NCBI GenBank assembly: GCA_009903935.1 | Contig: WYEG01000049.1 | Location: 1 to 33,703 of the forward strand | Length of the DNA stretch: 33,703 nt | Reading direction: 5' to 3' | Source: Caldimicrobium sp. | GTDB lineage: Bacteria > Desulfobacterota > Thermodesulfobacteria > Thermodesulfobacteriales > Thermodesulfobacteriaceae | Shown here: positions 17,383-25,932 of the stretch, piece after piece | Layout of the letters: each line of letters begins with the position of its first letter | How positions within the stretch are numbered: the first letter of the stretch is position 1 | Program-made: the position numbers and the translations under genes | The notes under the pieces: model-generated | Database searches by the model: none | What the model was told of the DNA's origin: nothing | The model's input: the letters and a program-made list of their open reading frames with translations, nothing else

Positions 17383-18693
17383 ATGGATGAATTCAGTGTA
17401 AACCCAGAGAGAGAGCTTTTAGAAGATTTACCATCTCTTATCCATCTTTCTGACCTTAGAAAAAAAACTCTAACTGAGCTCTATCAACTGGGGGAAAGGC
17501 TTGGCATAGAAGGGATCTACAATCTCTACAAAAAATCAGAAGTGGTCTATCAGATTATAAATGCCTTATTAGCAAGAAATGTAGAAATAGCGGTAGAAGG
17601 TGTCCTCGAAGTCCTACCTGAAGGCTTTGGCTTTTTGCGCTACAGCGACTACAACTACATGCCAAGTTCTGAAGATATCTATGTTTCACCACCTCAAATA
17701 AGAAAATTCGGCTTAAAGACAGGTGACACCATTTATGGATACATCAAACCCTCAAAGGAAGGGGAGAAATATTTTCCTTTAGCCAAAATCGAAAGAATAA
17801 ATTATCTTTCACCTGAAATGGTCCGTTCAAGGACACCCTTTGAACATCTAACCCCTATCCATCCCAACAAATGGTTAAGGCTTGAAACCACACCAGATAA
17901 CCTTTCAACGAGGATCATAGACCTCTTTGTGCCCATAGGCAAAGGACAAAGAGGTTTGATCGTTGCTCCACCACGCACTGGTAAAACAGTCCTCCTACAA
18001 AACATCGCAAACGGAATCGTCGCCAACTATCCTGACATCTATCTTATCATTTTACTTGTTGATGAAAGGCCCGAAGAAGTAACAGAAATGCAGAGAATCG
18101 TTCCAAAAGCTGAGGTCATTAGCTCAACCTTTGATGAACCACCAGAAAAACACATTAAAGTTGCAGACATCGTCATCGAAAAGGCTAAAAGGTTAGTTGA
18201 ATGCAAATACGATGTAGTCATCCTTCTTGATAGCTTGACCCGTCTAACTCGAGCCTCAAACTTAACCGCTCCTTCAAGCGGAAAGCTTCTTTCTGGTGGT
18301 ATCGACGCTAACGCTTTTCATAAGCCTAAGAGATTCTTCGGAGCAGCAAGAAACATCGAAGAGGGAGGAAGCCTAACCATCATAGCAACTTGCTTGATTG
18401 ATACCGGGAGCAGGATGGATGAGGTCATTTTTGAAGAGTTCAAAGGAACGGGCAACATGGAGATTGTGCTTGATCGAAGGCTTGCTGAAAGGAGAATATG
18501 GCCAGCTATTGATATCCATCTCAGTGGAACAAGAAAGGAAGAGCTACTCCTCCCACCTCACATACTCCATCGTGTTTGGCTCCTAAGGAAAGTCCTTGCC
18601 CCCTTAAGCCCTGTCGAATGCATGGAATTTTTAATCGAAAAAATGAAAGACACAAAAAGCAACGAAGAATTCTTAAGCATAATGAACCAGTAA
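17383..18693 (+). CDS. rho: Transcription termination factor Rho
   Basis: Rho is the hexameric RNA helicase that ends transcription. Domains: an N-terminal helix bundle (about 20-65), a cold-shock-like RNA-binding part with [20 protein letters not shown] (81-100) and [15 protein letters not shown], and the RecA-like motor with P-loop APPRTGKT (195-202), Walker [15 protein letters not shown], and [20 protein letters not shown] then [13 protein letters not shown]. The 436 aa length is normal with no insertion. GAGGGAA precedes the ATG. Confidence 0.97.
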
Positions 18694-18826: not shown

Positions 18827-18856
18827 AAGGGAAAGGGGGAGAAGCCCCTTTCCCTT
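18827..18856. terminator. Bidirectional terminator between rho and the cytochrome gene
   Basis: AAGGGAAAGGGG pairs perfectly with CCCCTTTCCCTT around a 6-base loop (12 bp stem). On the - strand the hairpin is followed by CATGTTTTTAAAA, serving the cytochrome gene; on the + strand by GCGTTTATATT, serving rho. The two genes converge on it. Confidence 0.75.
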
Positions 18857-18867
18857 GCGTTTATATT

Positions 18868-20178
18868 CTAAGCTCCAGGATAGGGTTCTTTGTCAGAAAA
18901 TCTGACCTTTTTGACCTCCCTCCTCCAGAGTTGGGCATAATCATCCTTTTTGCCAAAGGGGAAGTACCAGAGTTCAACTTCCAAAGTATACTCTAAGGAT
19001 TCAGGCTTTTTGTCCTTAGTCGGTAAGAAGATTCTATACTCTTCCTTTTTCTCCTCTAAAGGATGAAGACCCCATTCAACCAACAATCCTGATTTATCAT
19101 AAGGACCTCTACCCATCCTATCTCCTATACCTAGTTGATGAGGCACAGGCATTAAAACTTTACTTTCGGAGAAAACTACCTTGCCAGATGGGTCTTTGGC
19201 GGTCACTTCCAGGACCAGCCTGTTTGGCGTAGGTCAGCCATCGGGTATGGCATGTCCTGCCTTGTTTCGTATTTCTACTATAGCGTAGATTAATGGCTTA
19301 AGTACTGTTCCGTCCCTCCAATAGATTGGTTTAGCGTTTACATGGAAGTCAACAGCCATCTCTTGCATCTTTTTATCTCTGTAAGCTTGAATGTTATGTC
19401 CAAGCCCGCTTTCCCTCATATGGCAGTCTTGACAGCTCTTCATACCTCCTTTAGCTACATAGCTCCATAGATAATATCCATAAGCCGTGGCGCACTGGGA
19501 AGGTTCGTCAAGCTCAAGGTTTGGTCCCAACCCATGGCACTGTCCGCAGAAGATAGCTTCTTTGATGGCTGAACTATGTTTAATCTTTGGCATCTTTTCA
19601 AAAGGATGGTCTCCACTTTTTGAGCCATAGACTGCTTTCCTTTCAGGATAGCCTTCTACCCATTTGTGAATAATGGCATTTCTTTGATGACAGATCAAAC
19701 AGTTTATGTTTAGCTTTTCTAACTTTTCCTGTGCTTTGGCCGAGGTCTTCTCATCTCCTTCCATATAATCCATAGCAAGTTTAATGATCTCTTGAGCAAC
19801 AGAATCCTCTGCCTCCTCTAACTGAGGTAAATGACATTTTGCACAAAACATCAAGTGTTCAACCCTAACATCCTTGACATCTTTGACCCCTGCATATGGG
19901 AAATTCTTAAGACCTACCTTATATGCGGTTAGGATCGTGGCTATTGTCCTTCCGGTTCCAAAAATAGACCGGGCATGAAGACTTTTTGACCACTCCTCCG
20001 CAATATCAGCATGACAATTTACACATTCGCTAGAATCATACATAGCAACCAACTCATCCACTGTTTTAGCCTTGTTTAAAGGCTCTTTATAAGGCGTTTT
20101 AGCCTCCGGAGAAGCCACAGTTAGCCCTACCAACAAGGCAGGCACGCTTACATACCCTAAAAGTTTTCGCCAACGCAT
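18868..20178 (-). CDS. Periplasmic five-heme cytochrome c with an in-frame TGA (candidate selenoprotein)
   Basis: Read as one frame from ATG (20178-20176) it gives 436 residues with a TGA at codon 315 (19236-19234). The N-terminus is a signal peptide (about 1-26). Five CXXCH heme sites lie at 52-56 (CVNCH), 112-116 (CAKCH), 160-164 (CLICH), 211-215 (CGQCH) and 249-253 (CQDCH); ECVNCHADIAEEWSKSLHAR resembles cytochrome c554-type domains. The segment around the TGA is AGHAIPDG-stop-PTPNRLVLEV, and the frame continues without another stop through a beta-rich domain of about 120 residues. I recall related cytochromes having Cys at this point; TGC/TGT to TGA is one base. Readings: selenocysteine insertion, a recent nonsense mutation, or a sequence error. 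A strong site AAAGGAGGGGG precedes the ATG. A role in periplasmic electron transfer is inferred; no partner gene is adjacent. Confidence 0.8.
19198..19220 (-). promoter_or_regulatory. Candidate SECIS-like stem-loop just after the in-frame TGA
   Basis: Counting from the base after TGA, bases 14-15 and 17-22 can pair with 28, 30-34 and 35-36 (GG-C-UGGUC-C against G-U-GACCG-CC), with one-base bulges, leaving the loop UGGAA about 22 bases from the TGA. Loop G in the second position and the distance agree with general descriptions of bacterial SECIS elements. An alternative shorter hairpin CAGG-CUGGU-CCUG (19210-19222) competes. Drawn by hand; no energy was calculated. Confidence 0.4.
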
Positions 20179-20212
20179 AATCCCCCTCCTTTCTATTGAA
20201 TTTTTTTTTGAA

Positions 20213-20381: not shown

Positions 20382-22793
20382 TTAGTGGGATATTCCCTGT
20401 TGACTTACCTGGTCTTCAAGCTTTACTAACTGCCAAACATCAAGGAAAGGTGCTTCCTTGAAAAGATTTTCTGGGTCTGCAAGGTCAAGAGCAATCTTTA
20501 AAACCTCATCCATATGTTCAACAAACATAATTTCTAAGGGCTTCAAGATTTTTGGATTGATATCCTTTAGGTCCTTCTCATTTTCCTTAGGGATAATCAC
20601 GGTTTTGATCCCACCTCTTATGGCGGCAAGAAGTTTTTCCTTTAAGCCACCAATGGGAAGCACCCTTCCTCTTAAGGTGATCTCTCCGGTCATAGCTACA
20701 GTATTTTTAACAGGAACCTTTGTTAAGGCAGAAACGATTGCCGTAGCAATGGTTATACCAGCGCTTGGTCCATCCTTGGGGATAGCTCCCTCGGGCACAT
20801 GCACATGGATATCAACCTTATGATAAAAGTCGAGGGGGAGACCAAGCTGGAGAGCTCTTGACCGGACGTAGCTCATCGCTGCCTGGACCGACTCCTGCAT
20901 AACCTCGCCAAGCTTTCCGGTGATCTTTAAATTACCCTTACCGGGCATAATCACAGCCTCGATCTGTAAAAGAGCTCCTCCGGTTTCTGTCCAGGCAAGT
21001 CCTGTAGCAATGCCAACTTGAGGTTTCTCCTCAGCCACTCCATAACGGTATTTAGGAATTCCAAGGAAGCTTTCAAGCTTTGAAATGGTAACCTTGATGG
21101 GCTTAAATTCCTTGGGGTTCTTAGCCACATCCTTAGCGACCTTCCTGCAAATGGTAGCAAGCTCCCTTTCTAAGTTTCTGACTCCAGCCTCGCGGGTATA
21201 CCTTCGAATTATCTCCAAAATCATCTTATCGCTAAGCTGGACCATCTCAGGCTTAAGACCATGGGCCTCAAGCTGCCTCGGAAGGAGATGTCTTTTTGCT
21301 ATCTCTAACTTTTCCTCTTCCGTATAACCAGGTAGCTCAATTATCTCCATCCGGTCAAGAAGGGGGGCTGGAATGGTGTAAAGCGTGTTAGCCGTGGTTA
21401 TGAAAAATACCTGTGAAAGGTCGTAAGGAATTTCTAAATAGTGGTCCTGAAATGAAAAGTTCTGCTCTGGGTCGAGCACCTCTAAAAGAGCTGCCGCTGG
21501 GTCTCCGCGAAAGTCTGTTCCAATTTTGTCTATTTCGTCTAAGCAAAAGACAGGATTTATCGTTCCTGCCTTTTTCATGCCTTGGATGATCTTCCCGGGT
21601 AAGGCTCCAACATAGGTCCTTCTGTGCCCCCTTATCTCCGCCTCATCCCTTACGCCGCCAAGGGATATCCTCACAAAGTTTCTGCCGATAGCCTTGGCTA
21701 TCGACCTTGCAAGAGAAGTCTTACCAACCCCAGGTGGTCCAACGAAGCAAAGGATCGGACCCTTTATTTTTTGGACAAGCTTCTGGACGGCTAAATGTTC
21801 TATAATTCTCTGTTTAGGTTTTTCTAAGCCGTAATGCTCTTTGTTTAACAATTCTTCAACCTTATCAAGGTCGATGTTTTCTTTCGTTTTCTCATACCAG
21901 GGGAGGCTTAAGATCCAGTCAATGTAGTTTCTTACCACCGTTGCCTCAGCAGACATAGGAGGCATGAGGCTTAACTTCTTAAATTCCTTCCAGACAACCT
22001 CTTTAGCCTCTTTAGGGAGCTTCTTTTTCTTGATCCTCTTTTCTAACTCTGCAAGGTCGGTCCGACCATCCTCCCGCTCGCCAAGCTCCTTCTGTATAGC
22101 CTTCATCTGCTCTTGGAGATAATAATCCCTCTGGTGCTTCTCCATCTGCTTCTTGACACGTTCCCGGATACGAGCCTCGGTTTTGATGATCTCAATCTCA
22201 CCGCGGAGATGCCCTAAAACGGTCTCAAGCCTTTTCTTTACGCTGATGGTTTCAAGAAGCTTCTGCTTTACCTCTACCTTAAGATTTAAAAGGGCTGAAA
22301 GCCTATCCACAAACTCCAAGGGATTATCAAGGGTAAGAAGAGTGCTTACCGTGTCCTGGTTGAGCTTTTTGTTGTATTGCGCATACTCCTCGAGGGCTTC
22401 CTTACATAGGTTCATTAAGGCAATGGTTTCTGCATCCTCCTCGAGGACCTCGTTCATCTCTTCAACTTCAACGGAAAAATATTCTTCGGTAGTAAAGTAT
22501 CTAACTATCCTTCCCCTGGCCAACCCTTCCACCAATACCTTTAAAGTATTATCAGGAAGCCTAACAAGCTGAAGAATCCGGCAGATAGTCCCTACACGGT
22601 AAATGTCCTCTGGCGTAGGTGCGTCTATCTTTGGGTCCTTCTGAGCAGCAAGAAATATCAGTTTGTCCCTTTGGTAAGCCTTCTCGACGGCGATGATGCT
22701 TTTTGTCCTTCCAATAAAAAGTGGAACCGCTGTTTGAGGGAAAACTACAAGCTCCCTCAAAGGCATTAAAGGTAAAACCTTCAAATTATCCAT
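20382..22793 (-). CDS. lon: ATP-dependent protease Lon
   Basis: Lon is a cytosolic AAA+ serine protease that degrades misfolded and regulatory proteins. N-terminal LON domain: [20 protein letters not shown] (about 6-25). AAA+ module: P-loop [12 protein letters not shown] (about 355), Walker [10 protein letters not shown]. Protease domain: [14 protein letters not shown] with the catalytic Ser and [18 protein letters not shown] with the catalytic Lys. At 803 residues it is normal for the A-type enzyme. It starts 8 bases after the clpX stop and appears to be the last gene of the proteostasis run, before a clear terminator. Confidence 0.97.
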
Positions 22794-22801
22794 AAACTTC
22801 T

Positions 22802-24055
22802 CTAACCCCCTTTAGCCATTTTTGAGTTATAAATTAAGATCGGTCGATCCTTTTTCAAGACAACTTCTTCGGTTATCACACACTCCTTTACTCCAGAAAG
22901 GCTTGGTATCTCATACATCACATCTATCATAATCTCTTCAAGGATAGACCTTAGACCCCTTGCTCCGGTCTTCCTTTTATAAGCCATCTCGGCAACGGCT
23001 CTCAAAGCGCCCTCTGTAAACCTAAGATTTACTCCCTCCATCTCAAAGAGCTTCTGATACTGCTTAATGAGGGAGTTCTTTGGTTCAACAAGGATCCTCA
23101 CCAAATCATCAACGGAAAGCTCATCAAGGGTAGCCACAACCGGAAGCCTACCCACAAACTCAGGAATAAAACCAAACTTTATAAGGTCCTCTGGCTGAAC
23201 ATGAGATAGAATCTCTCCAAGCGTCAAATCCTTAACAGACTTAATCTCTGCTCCAAATCCTATCGAACCCTTTCCAAGCCTCCTCTTGATAATATCTTCT
23301 AAACCAACGAAAGCTCCTCCGCAGATGAAGAGTATGTTGGTAGTATCGATGCGGATGTATTCCTGTTGAGGATGCTTTCTTCCACCCTTAGGGGGTATGT
23401 TGGCTATAGTTCCTTCAAGGATCTTAAGTAAAGCCTGTTGCACTCCTTCTCCAGATACATCCCGAGTAATTGATGGACCTTCTGTTTTTTTGGCGATTTT
23501 ATCGACCTCATCAATGTAGACTATGCCCTTTTGGGCTGCCTCAACATCAAAGTTTGCCGCTTGTAAAAGATAAAGGAGGATGTTTTCAACATCCTCACCT
23601 ACATATCCAGCCTCAGTCAAAGGTGTGGCATCAGCAATGGTAAAAGGAACCCTTAAAAATTTAGCCAAGGTCTGAGCAAGAAGAGTTTTACCCGAGCCTG
23701 TAGGTCCGATAAGCAGAATGTTTGTCTTTTGGATCTCTACATCATCCTGTTTTTTCCTGGGTTTATATTCCGTGCTTAGGATCCTTTTGTAATGATTGTA
23801 TACCGCAACGGAGAGGATCTTTTTTGCCCTTTCCTGACCAATGACATATTGATCAAGATAGGCTTTTATCTCCGCTGGCTTAGGAAGCTTTGGTGCCTCC
23901 TCAGCCTCGTTTGCCCTTTCAAACTCTTCTTCCAAAATCTCATTACAAAGCTCAACGCATTCGTTGCATATGTAAGCTTGGGCTCCAGCAATTAATTTTC
24001 TTACCTCGCTCTGAGTCCTTCCGCAAAAGGAGCACCTTGGTTCATCCTTTCTCAT
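22802..24055 (-). CDS. clpX: ClpXP ATP-binding subunit ClpX
   Basis: ClpX unfolds tagged substrates and feeds them to ClpP. The N-terminal zinc-binding domain has C8, C11, C30 and C33 (CSFC, CNEC). The AAA+ part has [15 protein letters not shown], the Walker B YIDEVDKI, sensor and arginine-finger blocks, and [15 protein letters not shown] with the IGF-type loop region earlier (GSIGFGAE). Full length at 417 residues. It follows clpP by 6 bases, the usual order, so the two are likely co-expressed. Confidence 0.97.
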
Positions 24056-24061
24056 AGCCCT

Positions 24062-24649
24062 CTAACCTCTTTTATACAAGATATGGTCTATTATTCCATA
24101 CTTCTGAGCTTCCTCAGAGGACATGTAAAAGTCCCTCTCTGTGTCTTTGGCTATTCTTTTTTTGTCCTGACCGGTATGCTTGGCAAGGATCTCATTGAGT
24201 ATGTCCCTAAGCCTAAGTATTTCCTTTGCTTGAATCTCAACCTCCGTTGCCTGCCCTTGGAAGGCACCCATAGGCTGGTGGATCATGATCCTTGAATGAG
24301 GAAGGGCATACCTTTTCCCTTTAGCTCCTGCAGCTAAAAGCACTGCTGCCATGCTTGCTGCTTGACCAACGCAAATAGTGCATACATCAGGCTTTATATA
24401 CTGCATTGTATCATAGATGGCTAAGCCTGCTGATACCATGCCCCCAGGGGAATTGATATAAAGCATGATATCTTTTTCTGGGTCCTCAGCCTCAAGAAAA
24501 AGAAGCTGAGCTATCACAAGGTTTGCTACATGATCATCTATCGCCGTCCCAAGGAAGATGATCCTTTCTTTAAGCAAGCGGGAATAGATATCGTAAGCTC
24601 TTTCGGTCCTTCCCGTCTGCTCGATAACTATGGGAACATAGAAGGGCAT
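24062..24649 (-). CDS. clpP: ClpP protease proteolytic subunit
   Basis: ClpP is the tetradecameric serine peptidase that works with ClpX. The catalytic triad is complete: S99 ([10 protein letters not shown]), H124 ([10 protein letters not shown]) and D173 (TERDFYMSS). [20 protein letters not shown] is the standard N-terminus. 195 residues, normal. AAGGAGG inside the end of tig lies 7 bases before its ATG, 2 bases after the tig stop. Confidence 0.97.
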
Positions 24650-24651
24650 GC

Positions 24652-25932
24652 TTATTCCTCCTTGAAAATAGGCTTTGAATTTTCAACAAGGAATTGCAAG
24701 GTCCTCTCGGCAAGCATCTTAGGTAGAATATTAAACTGAAGGATCCTAATTGCCTCCTCCTCAGGGATGCCCAAACCCTTCATCATGTTTTCCTTCATCC
24801 TTTCTATTTCTTCATCTGGTATGGATATACCTTCTATCTCTGCTATCTTTTCTAAAAGGATTTCCTCTTTAGCCTGCTTTTCAGCAATAGGCATTAGCCT
24901 TTTCTTCAAACTTTCAAGGGATAGGTTCAATTTTTCAAAACTCAGTCCATCTTGAGCCAATGTCTCTCTAAGTTGGTCAACCAATTGATAAAACTTAATT
25001 TCTACATACCTTGCCGGAACCTCAAAATCTACCTTTTCTAATATCTTCTCTAAAAGCCTTTCCCGATATCTATTTTCATTCCTCCTCTTTTTATCGTTAA
25101 GGAGCCTTTCTCTTATGCTTTCCCTAAGCTTTTCAACGCTTTCAAAGCCAAGGTTTAACTTTTTCAAAAATTCATCCGTTAGCTCTTCAAGCTCCCTTCT
25201 ATAAATCTCCTTCACTTCAATTTCATAACGGACTTTTTTCCCGGCAAGTAAAGGATTTAAGGCATCCTCAGGATGTTCAACTTCCACGGTAAACCTATCT
25301 CCAATCCTTTTTCCTATAAGTTCGCGTTCCACCTTCTCGTTAAACTCACCCGTGCCCACATCGATGTATAAAGCTTGAGCTTCATGACCAGGAATAGGGT
25401 TCTCCCCATCATAAGCTACAAAGCTTATCACCACCGCATCCCTCTCCTTAATCTCATCATCAACCTCTTTAAGCTCAGAGAAAGAATACCTAAGCTCGTT
25501 TAAAATCCTTTCTACCTCTTCCTCAGAAACCTCGTCCTTTTCTCTCTCAACCTCAAGCCCAATGTAGTCTTCCTTAGACAAATTGATCTCCGGTCTAACC
25601 TCAACCAAGACAGAATATGTAAAGGGAGACCCCTCTACGATCCTATCAAAACTCTCGATGCGAGGACGAAGAAGCGGCTCAAGGTTAGCTTCTTTTATGG
25701 CTTTCTCTAAGGTTTCGCCTATCAATCTTTCAATGCTCCTCTCCTCAATCTCCTCCTTAAAAAGCTTCCTTACTAAATAAAGTGGAGCTTTACCCTCCCT
25801 AAATCCCTTAATCTTTGCCCTTCTCTGATACTCCCTCTCAACTTCCTCAACAACCCTTTTTGTCTCTTCAGGCGGGATTTCAACCTTAAGTATTTTGTCA
25901 ACCGATGTTCTATCCTCAACCTCTACCCTCAT
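24652..25932 (-). CDS. tig: Trigger factor
   Basis: Trigger factor is the ribosome-bound chaperone and prolyl isomerase. The ribosome-docking signature GFREGKAP is near residue 45; the FKBP-type isomerase domain (about 160-250) includes [13 protein letters not shown] and [16 protein letters not shown]; the rest is the helical arm domain. At 426 residues it is normal. AAAGGAGGAAGG precedes the ATG. It heads the run tig-clpP-clpX-lon, an order known from many bacteria. Confidence 0.96.

Follow-up and report, generated by a model that had tools for sequence, protein, structure and literature searches.

An ExtKL-type cytochrome gene with a predicted selenocysteine in Caldimicrobium sp., and a candidate second selenocysteine cytochrome of ExtM type

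ExtKL of Geobacter is a cytochrome with a predicted selenocysteine (Sec) and, on preliminary data, a candidate for selenite reduction (PMC5877670). It has been placed in the extHIJKL cluster (PMC6148476), and its family is one of the 119 prokaryotic selenoprotein families in a 2026 review (PMC13188914). Structures are available for MccSep (PDB 9wt8 and 9wt9, the latter being the U325A mutant). Here, we describe a gene of this type in Caldimicrobium sp. The window analyzed is a stretch of 33,703 nucleotides (contig WYEG01000049.1, assembly GCA_009903935.1), and the gene lies on its minus strand, from 20178 to 18868. A preliminary description of this DNA had proposed a candidate selenocysteine cytochrome, encoded by one frame with a signal peptide, five CXXCH motifs, a TGA at 19236-19234 and 121 further open codons. 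Translation confirmed this layout, with a single in-frame TGA as residue 315 and the five motifs upstream of it. The proposal itself found support in the family match, the alignment with the Sec of MccSep, the decoding machinery of the genome and a hairpin after the TGA.

Family identity and layout of the gene

Against the NCBIfam profile NF040886 ("multiheme c-type cytochrome (seleno)protein ExtKL"), the protein gave 554 bits over profile positions 12-422 of 423, the curated cut-off being 250 bits. In a sequence search of the PDB, MccSep (9wt8/9wt9) matched at 487 bits, with residue 315 lying opposite the X (Sec) of 9wt8 and the Ala of 9wt9. The likeness to MccSep and to ExtKL of Geobacter sulfurreducens (GSU2937-2936; PMC5877670) is that of an exported pentaheme cytochrome that matches over its whole length and whose Sec falls on the same column of the alignment (PDG-U-PTPN). 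All the features that define membership in NF040886 were found: a full-length match over the cut-off, a signal peptide with five CXXCH motifs, and the PDG-U site. The gene thus reads unambiguously as a further member of a selenoprotein family that has been described before and has solved structures, and its own novelty is accordingly low. In fold library results that did not include MccSep, the best match was the penta-heme cytochrome c552 of Thermochromatium tepidum (PDB 5ze8), a distant and weak sequence match whose partial coverage takes in the last heme and the beta domain (E 1e-8 to 1e-20). Searches of the gene region against Rfam gave no match above the threshold of any family, and a PHROGs search gave no match.

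With the family, the decoding signal and the machinery all readable in the sequence, we put at about 0.93 the probability that this is an ExtKL/MccSep selenoprotein, with UGA 315 read as Sec, that would be exported, loaded with five hemes and likely act as a Sec redox enzyme. The features of the locus are as follows:

18868 to 20178, minus strand: extKL-type selenoprotein gene for a 436-residue exported pentaheme cytochrome c, with TGA as Sec (translation, profile match, PDB alignment)
20185 to 20190, minus strand: strong ribosome-binding site AGGAGG, just 5' of the start ATG (sequence)
20101 to 20178, minus strand: N-terminal signal peptide, residues 1 to about 26 (sequence; predicted helix 2-21; putative cleavage site)
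20011 to 20025, minus strand: heme-binding motif 1, CVNCH, residues 52-56 (translation)
19831 to 19845, minus strand: heme-binding motif 2, CAKCH, residues 112-116 (translation)
19687 to 19701, minus strand: heme-binding motif 3, CLICH, residues 160-164 (translation)
19534 to 19548, minus strand: heme-binding motif 4, CGQCH, residues 211-215 (translation)
19420 to 19434, minus strand: heme-binding motif 5, CQDCH, residues 249-253 (translation)
19234 to 19236, minus strand: TGA codon for Sec 315 in the motif GHxIPDG-U (alignment of homologues; opposite the Sec of PDB 9wt8)
19198 to 19220, minus strand: hairpin of selenocysteine insertion sequence (SECIS) type, GGC-U-GGUC[CUGGAAGU]GACC-GCC, with a bulged U, +17 to +39 from the U of UGA (folding and recoding test)
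18827 to 18856, minus strand: terminator-like hairpin just 3' of the extKL gene (a match to a consensus only, and one that fits rho on the plus strand too)

Predicted decoding of the TGA as selenocysteine

The preliminary description had tied its proposal to the presence of the Sec machinery and to the state of the site in homologues, and both turned out in its favor. Regarding the machinery, the genome holds a tRNA-Sec (82 bits, tca anticodon), selB, a selA cut by a contig end, and selD. SelA was found in 50 of the 50 genomes tested, including those where neither this gene nor the second TGA cytochrome gene described below was found, so that its presence does not discriminate. The selD gene (locus L053:1483-2535, plus strand, contig C6) has its own in-frame TGA near the N-terminus (ASGUASK), where SelD selenoproteins have their Sec, and is itself a predicted selenoprotein.

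Regarding the site, the fetched homologues have TGA in 47 distinct copies and TGT (Cys) in five, so that every homologue carries TGA or Cys except two paralogues with Ile or Val. Across the phylum, 40 of 395 genomes have a family member over the cut-off, and most of those copies contain exactly one TGA. The two deviating paralogues each form part of a tandem arrangement of ExtKL-like genes, in two genomes (L100:7700-10800 and L089). Their Sec sites read PDSISSN and PDSVSSN, with Ile or Val as the residue, yet both retain the conserved His and Cys229.

To evaluate the hairpin, we compared the local hairpin energy with that of synonymous recodings that kept to the codon usage of the gene. The hairpin of the window gene had -10.4 kcal/mol, versus -3.2 kcal/mol in the recodings (z = -4.0). 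Over the 47 TGA copies the mean z was -2.5, with P of 0.05 or less in 29 of them; these copies are related to each other, so that their scores are not independent trials. Over the five Cys copies, the mean z was -0.05 and none reached P of 0.05 or less. Only the local hairpin stands out: the 60 bases from the TGA onward, folded as a whole, have an unremarkable free energy (z -0.64). The bases GGTCCTGG..GTGACC are near-constant in most TGA copies, synonymous positions included, and are lost in the TGT copies; the stems differ in a few of the more distant TGA copies. The layout with a bulged U presumably resembles the SECIS of E. coli fdhF. A hairpin of SECIS type is thus found shortly after the UGA, and SelB is predicted to bind it.

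One could argue that the TGA is a true stop, giving a 314-residue pentaheme cytochrome, with the remainder left untranslated or made as a separate small protein from a GTG at 19206. All five heme motifs do precede the TGA, and a plain list of open reading frames splits the gene there into two fragments, as had been anticipated for gene callers; these break up genes of this kind, and the domain with the Sec would be missing from an annotation. However, all relatives conserve the part after the TGA in the same frame, Cys occupies the site in uninterrupted proteins such as those of loci L029, L032 and L101, and the MccSep structure is one chain through the Sec site. Moreover, the GTG is the sole start candidate of the downstream part, and it falls within the hairpin and has no ribosome-binding site, in line with the earlier remark that the second half lacks a good start. 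From composition alone, the chance of 121 open codons after a stop is about 0.0009. We therefore regard a true stop as highly improbable.

The TGA is one base away from TGC and from TGG, and a Cys or Trp codon could have been turned into TGA by a sequencing error or in a pseudogene. This explanation has a next to negligible probability: the same TGA and hairpin recur in dozens of genomes assembled independently of one another, so that a read error here is very unlikely, and both halves of the gene are conserved. Sequencing error, pseudogene and two separate genes were all rejected on this comparative evidence. A changed genetic code was rejected as well, and the standard code assumed before holds, since rplF, rpsE and rpoA end on TGA as an ordinary stop.

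Proposed function and genomic context

Under the selenoprotein reading, SelB and Sec-tRNA would decode UGA 315 as selenocysteine, guided by the hairpin that begins 16 bases further on, and the full 436-residue chain would be exported and receive five c-type hemes. The Sec would then sit in the C-terminal beta domain, within the invariant GHxxPDG-U motif. As a periplasmic oxidoreductase, the protein would most likely pass electrons from its hemes to the selenol. The selenol would attack a small acceptor, for which compounds of selenium, tellurium or sulfur are plausible. The link with selenite comes by analogy from the Geobacter reports only. Other invariant residues are the histidines 68, 261 and 309, which are likely the distal heme ligands, and the non-heme Cys229. 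As His309 is six residues from Sec 315, a heme probably lies near the Sec. We also considered an obligate selenosulfide between Sec315 and Cys229, which is not supported, Cys229 being kept in the paralogues with Ile or Val at 315.

Several points weigh against this reading. Selenoprotein status in Caldimicrobium is a prediction from sequence, and the acceptor is a putative one. The AlphaFold2 model (mean predicted local distance difference test, pLDDT, 73.9) is weak at the Sec, with pLDDT below 50 at residues 314-316, so that the distance between Sec and heme is not readable from it. Finally, the ext partners ExtI and ExtH were not found in the genome, and the role reported in Geobacter may thus not transfer.

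The search for these partners used ExtI (porin), ExtH (rhodanese lipoprotein) and ExtM (12-heme cytochrome) queries from a cluster-bearing relative (L103). ExtI and ExtH gave no match in the Caldimicrobium genome, while the same queries matched in three genomes that bear the cluster (G067, G102 and G163). In contrast to the gene of Geobacter sulfurreducens, the Caldimicrobium gene stands alone between rho and lon, with no extHIJ adjoining. Judging by their translations, its neighbors are rho (plus strand, 17383-18693) and lon, clpX, clpP and tig (minus strand, 20382-25932), with terminator-like hairpins after lon and after the extKL gene. In the two close relatives inspected (L059 and L067), the gene also adjoins lon and, contig permitting, rho. 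The closest named relatives of the genome are Thermodesulfobacteriaceae.

These observations bear on whether the selenoprotein relays electrons to the outer membrane, as part of a conduit of the extHIJKL type, rather than reducing a small substrate. A porin and a rhodanese gene adjoin the gene in three relatives outside the family, as such a relay would have it. Nevertheless, we consider it unlikely here, given that this genome and those of close relatives lack ExtI and ExtH homologues and that the gene is alone beside lon and rho. The Caldimicrobium protein would thus lie outside any extHIJKL conduit, and the role of ExtKL could be studied in it apart from such an outer-membrane conduit.

Elsewhere, in two relatives, the Cys forms of ExtKL (L063:7504-10034 and L068:7339-10164) have rhodanese-domain genes just downstream, recalling ExtH, and their genomes also hold a TGA copy of ExtKL.

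A second cytochrome gene with an in-frame TGA

The results most worth keeping are the unclustered context of the extKL gene and a second cytochrome, reached through the ExtM search of the same genome (G000). On contig C33 (L114:7123-8766, plus strand), we found an ExtM-like cytochrome with 11 hemes and an in-frame TGA in VTPG-U-QDF. It resembles ExtM (NCBIfam NF040943) along the chain and conserves the PG-C/U-Q motif, but scores 269 bits against a cut-off of 800, has eleven CXXCH motifs instead of the twelve of ExtM, and has a predicted Sec where ExtM has Cys. Of the homologues among the fetched loci of the phylum, 25 have TGA at the site and eight have TGC or TGT, with no other codon seen. 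The hairpin after the TGA had a mean z of -1.5 in the TGA copies (-2.2 in this genome) and -0.3 in the Cys copies, and its register differs between species.

An ExtM-type selenoprotein appears neither in the NCBIfam name nor in the table of the 119-family review (PMC13188914), and text searches of the open-access literature gave none. The organism probably has two Sec multiheme cytochromes, the known ExtKL and an undescribed ExtM-like one with Sec/Cys interchange across the phylum. If so, Sec would recur as an element of the periplasmic cytochrome system of ext type, kept even without the porin conduit, and the ExtM-like Sec/Cys family would extend the list of bacterial selenoproteins.

In two relatives (L117:6339-9206 and L118:8144-11026), the ExtM-like TGA gene is preceded by genes that by eye resemble a Rieske-type protein and a membrane cytochrome b, which suggests a bc-like complex.
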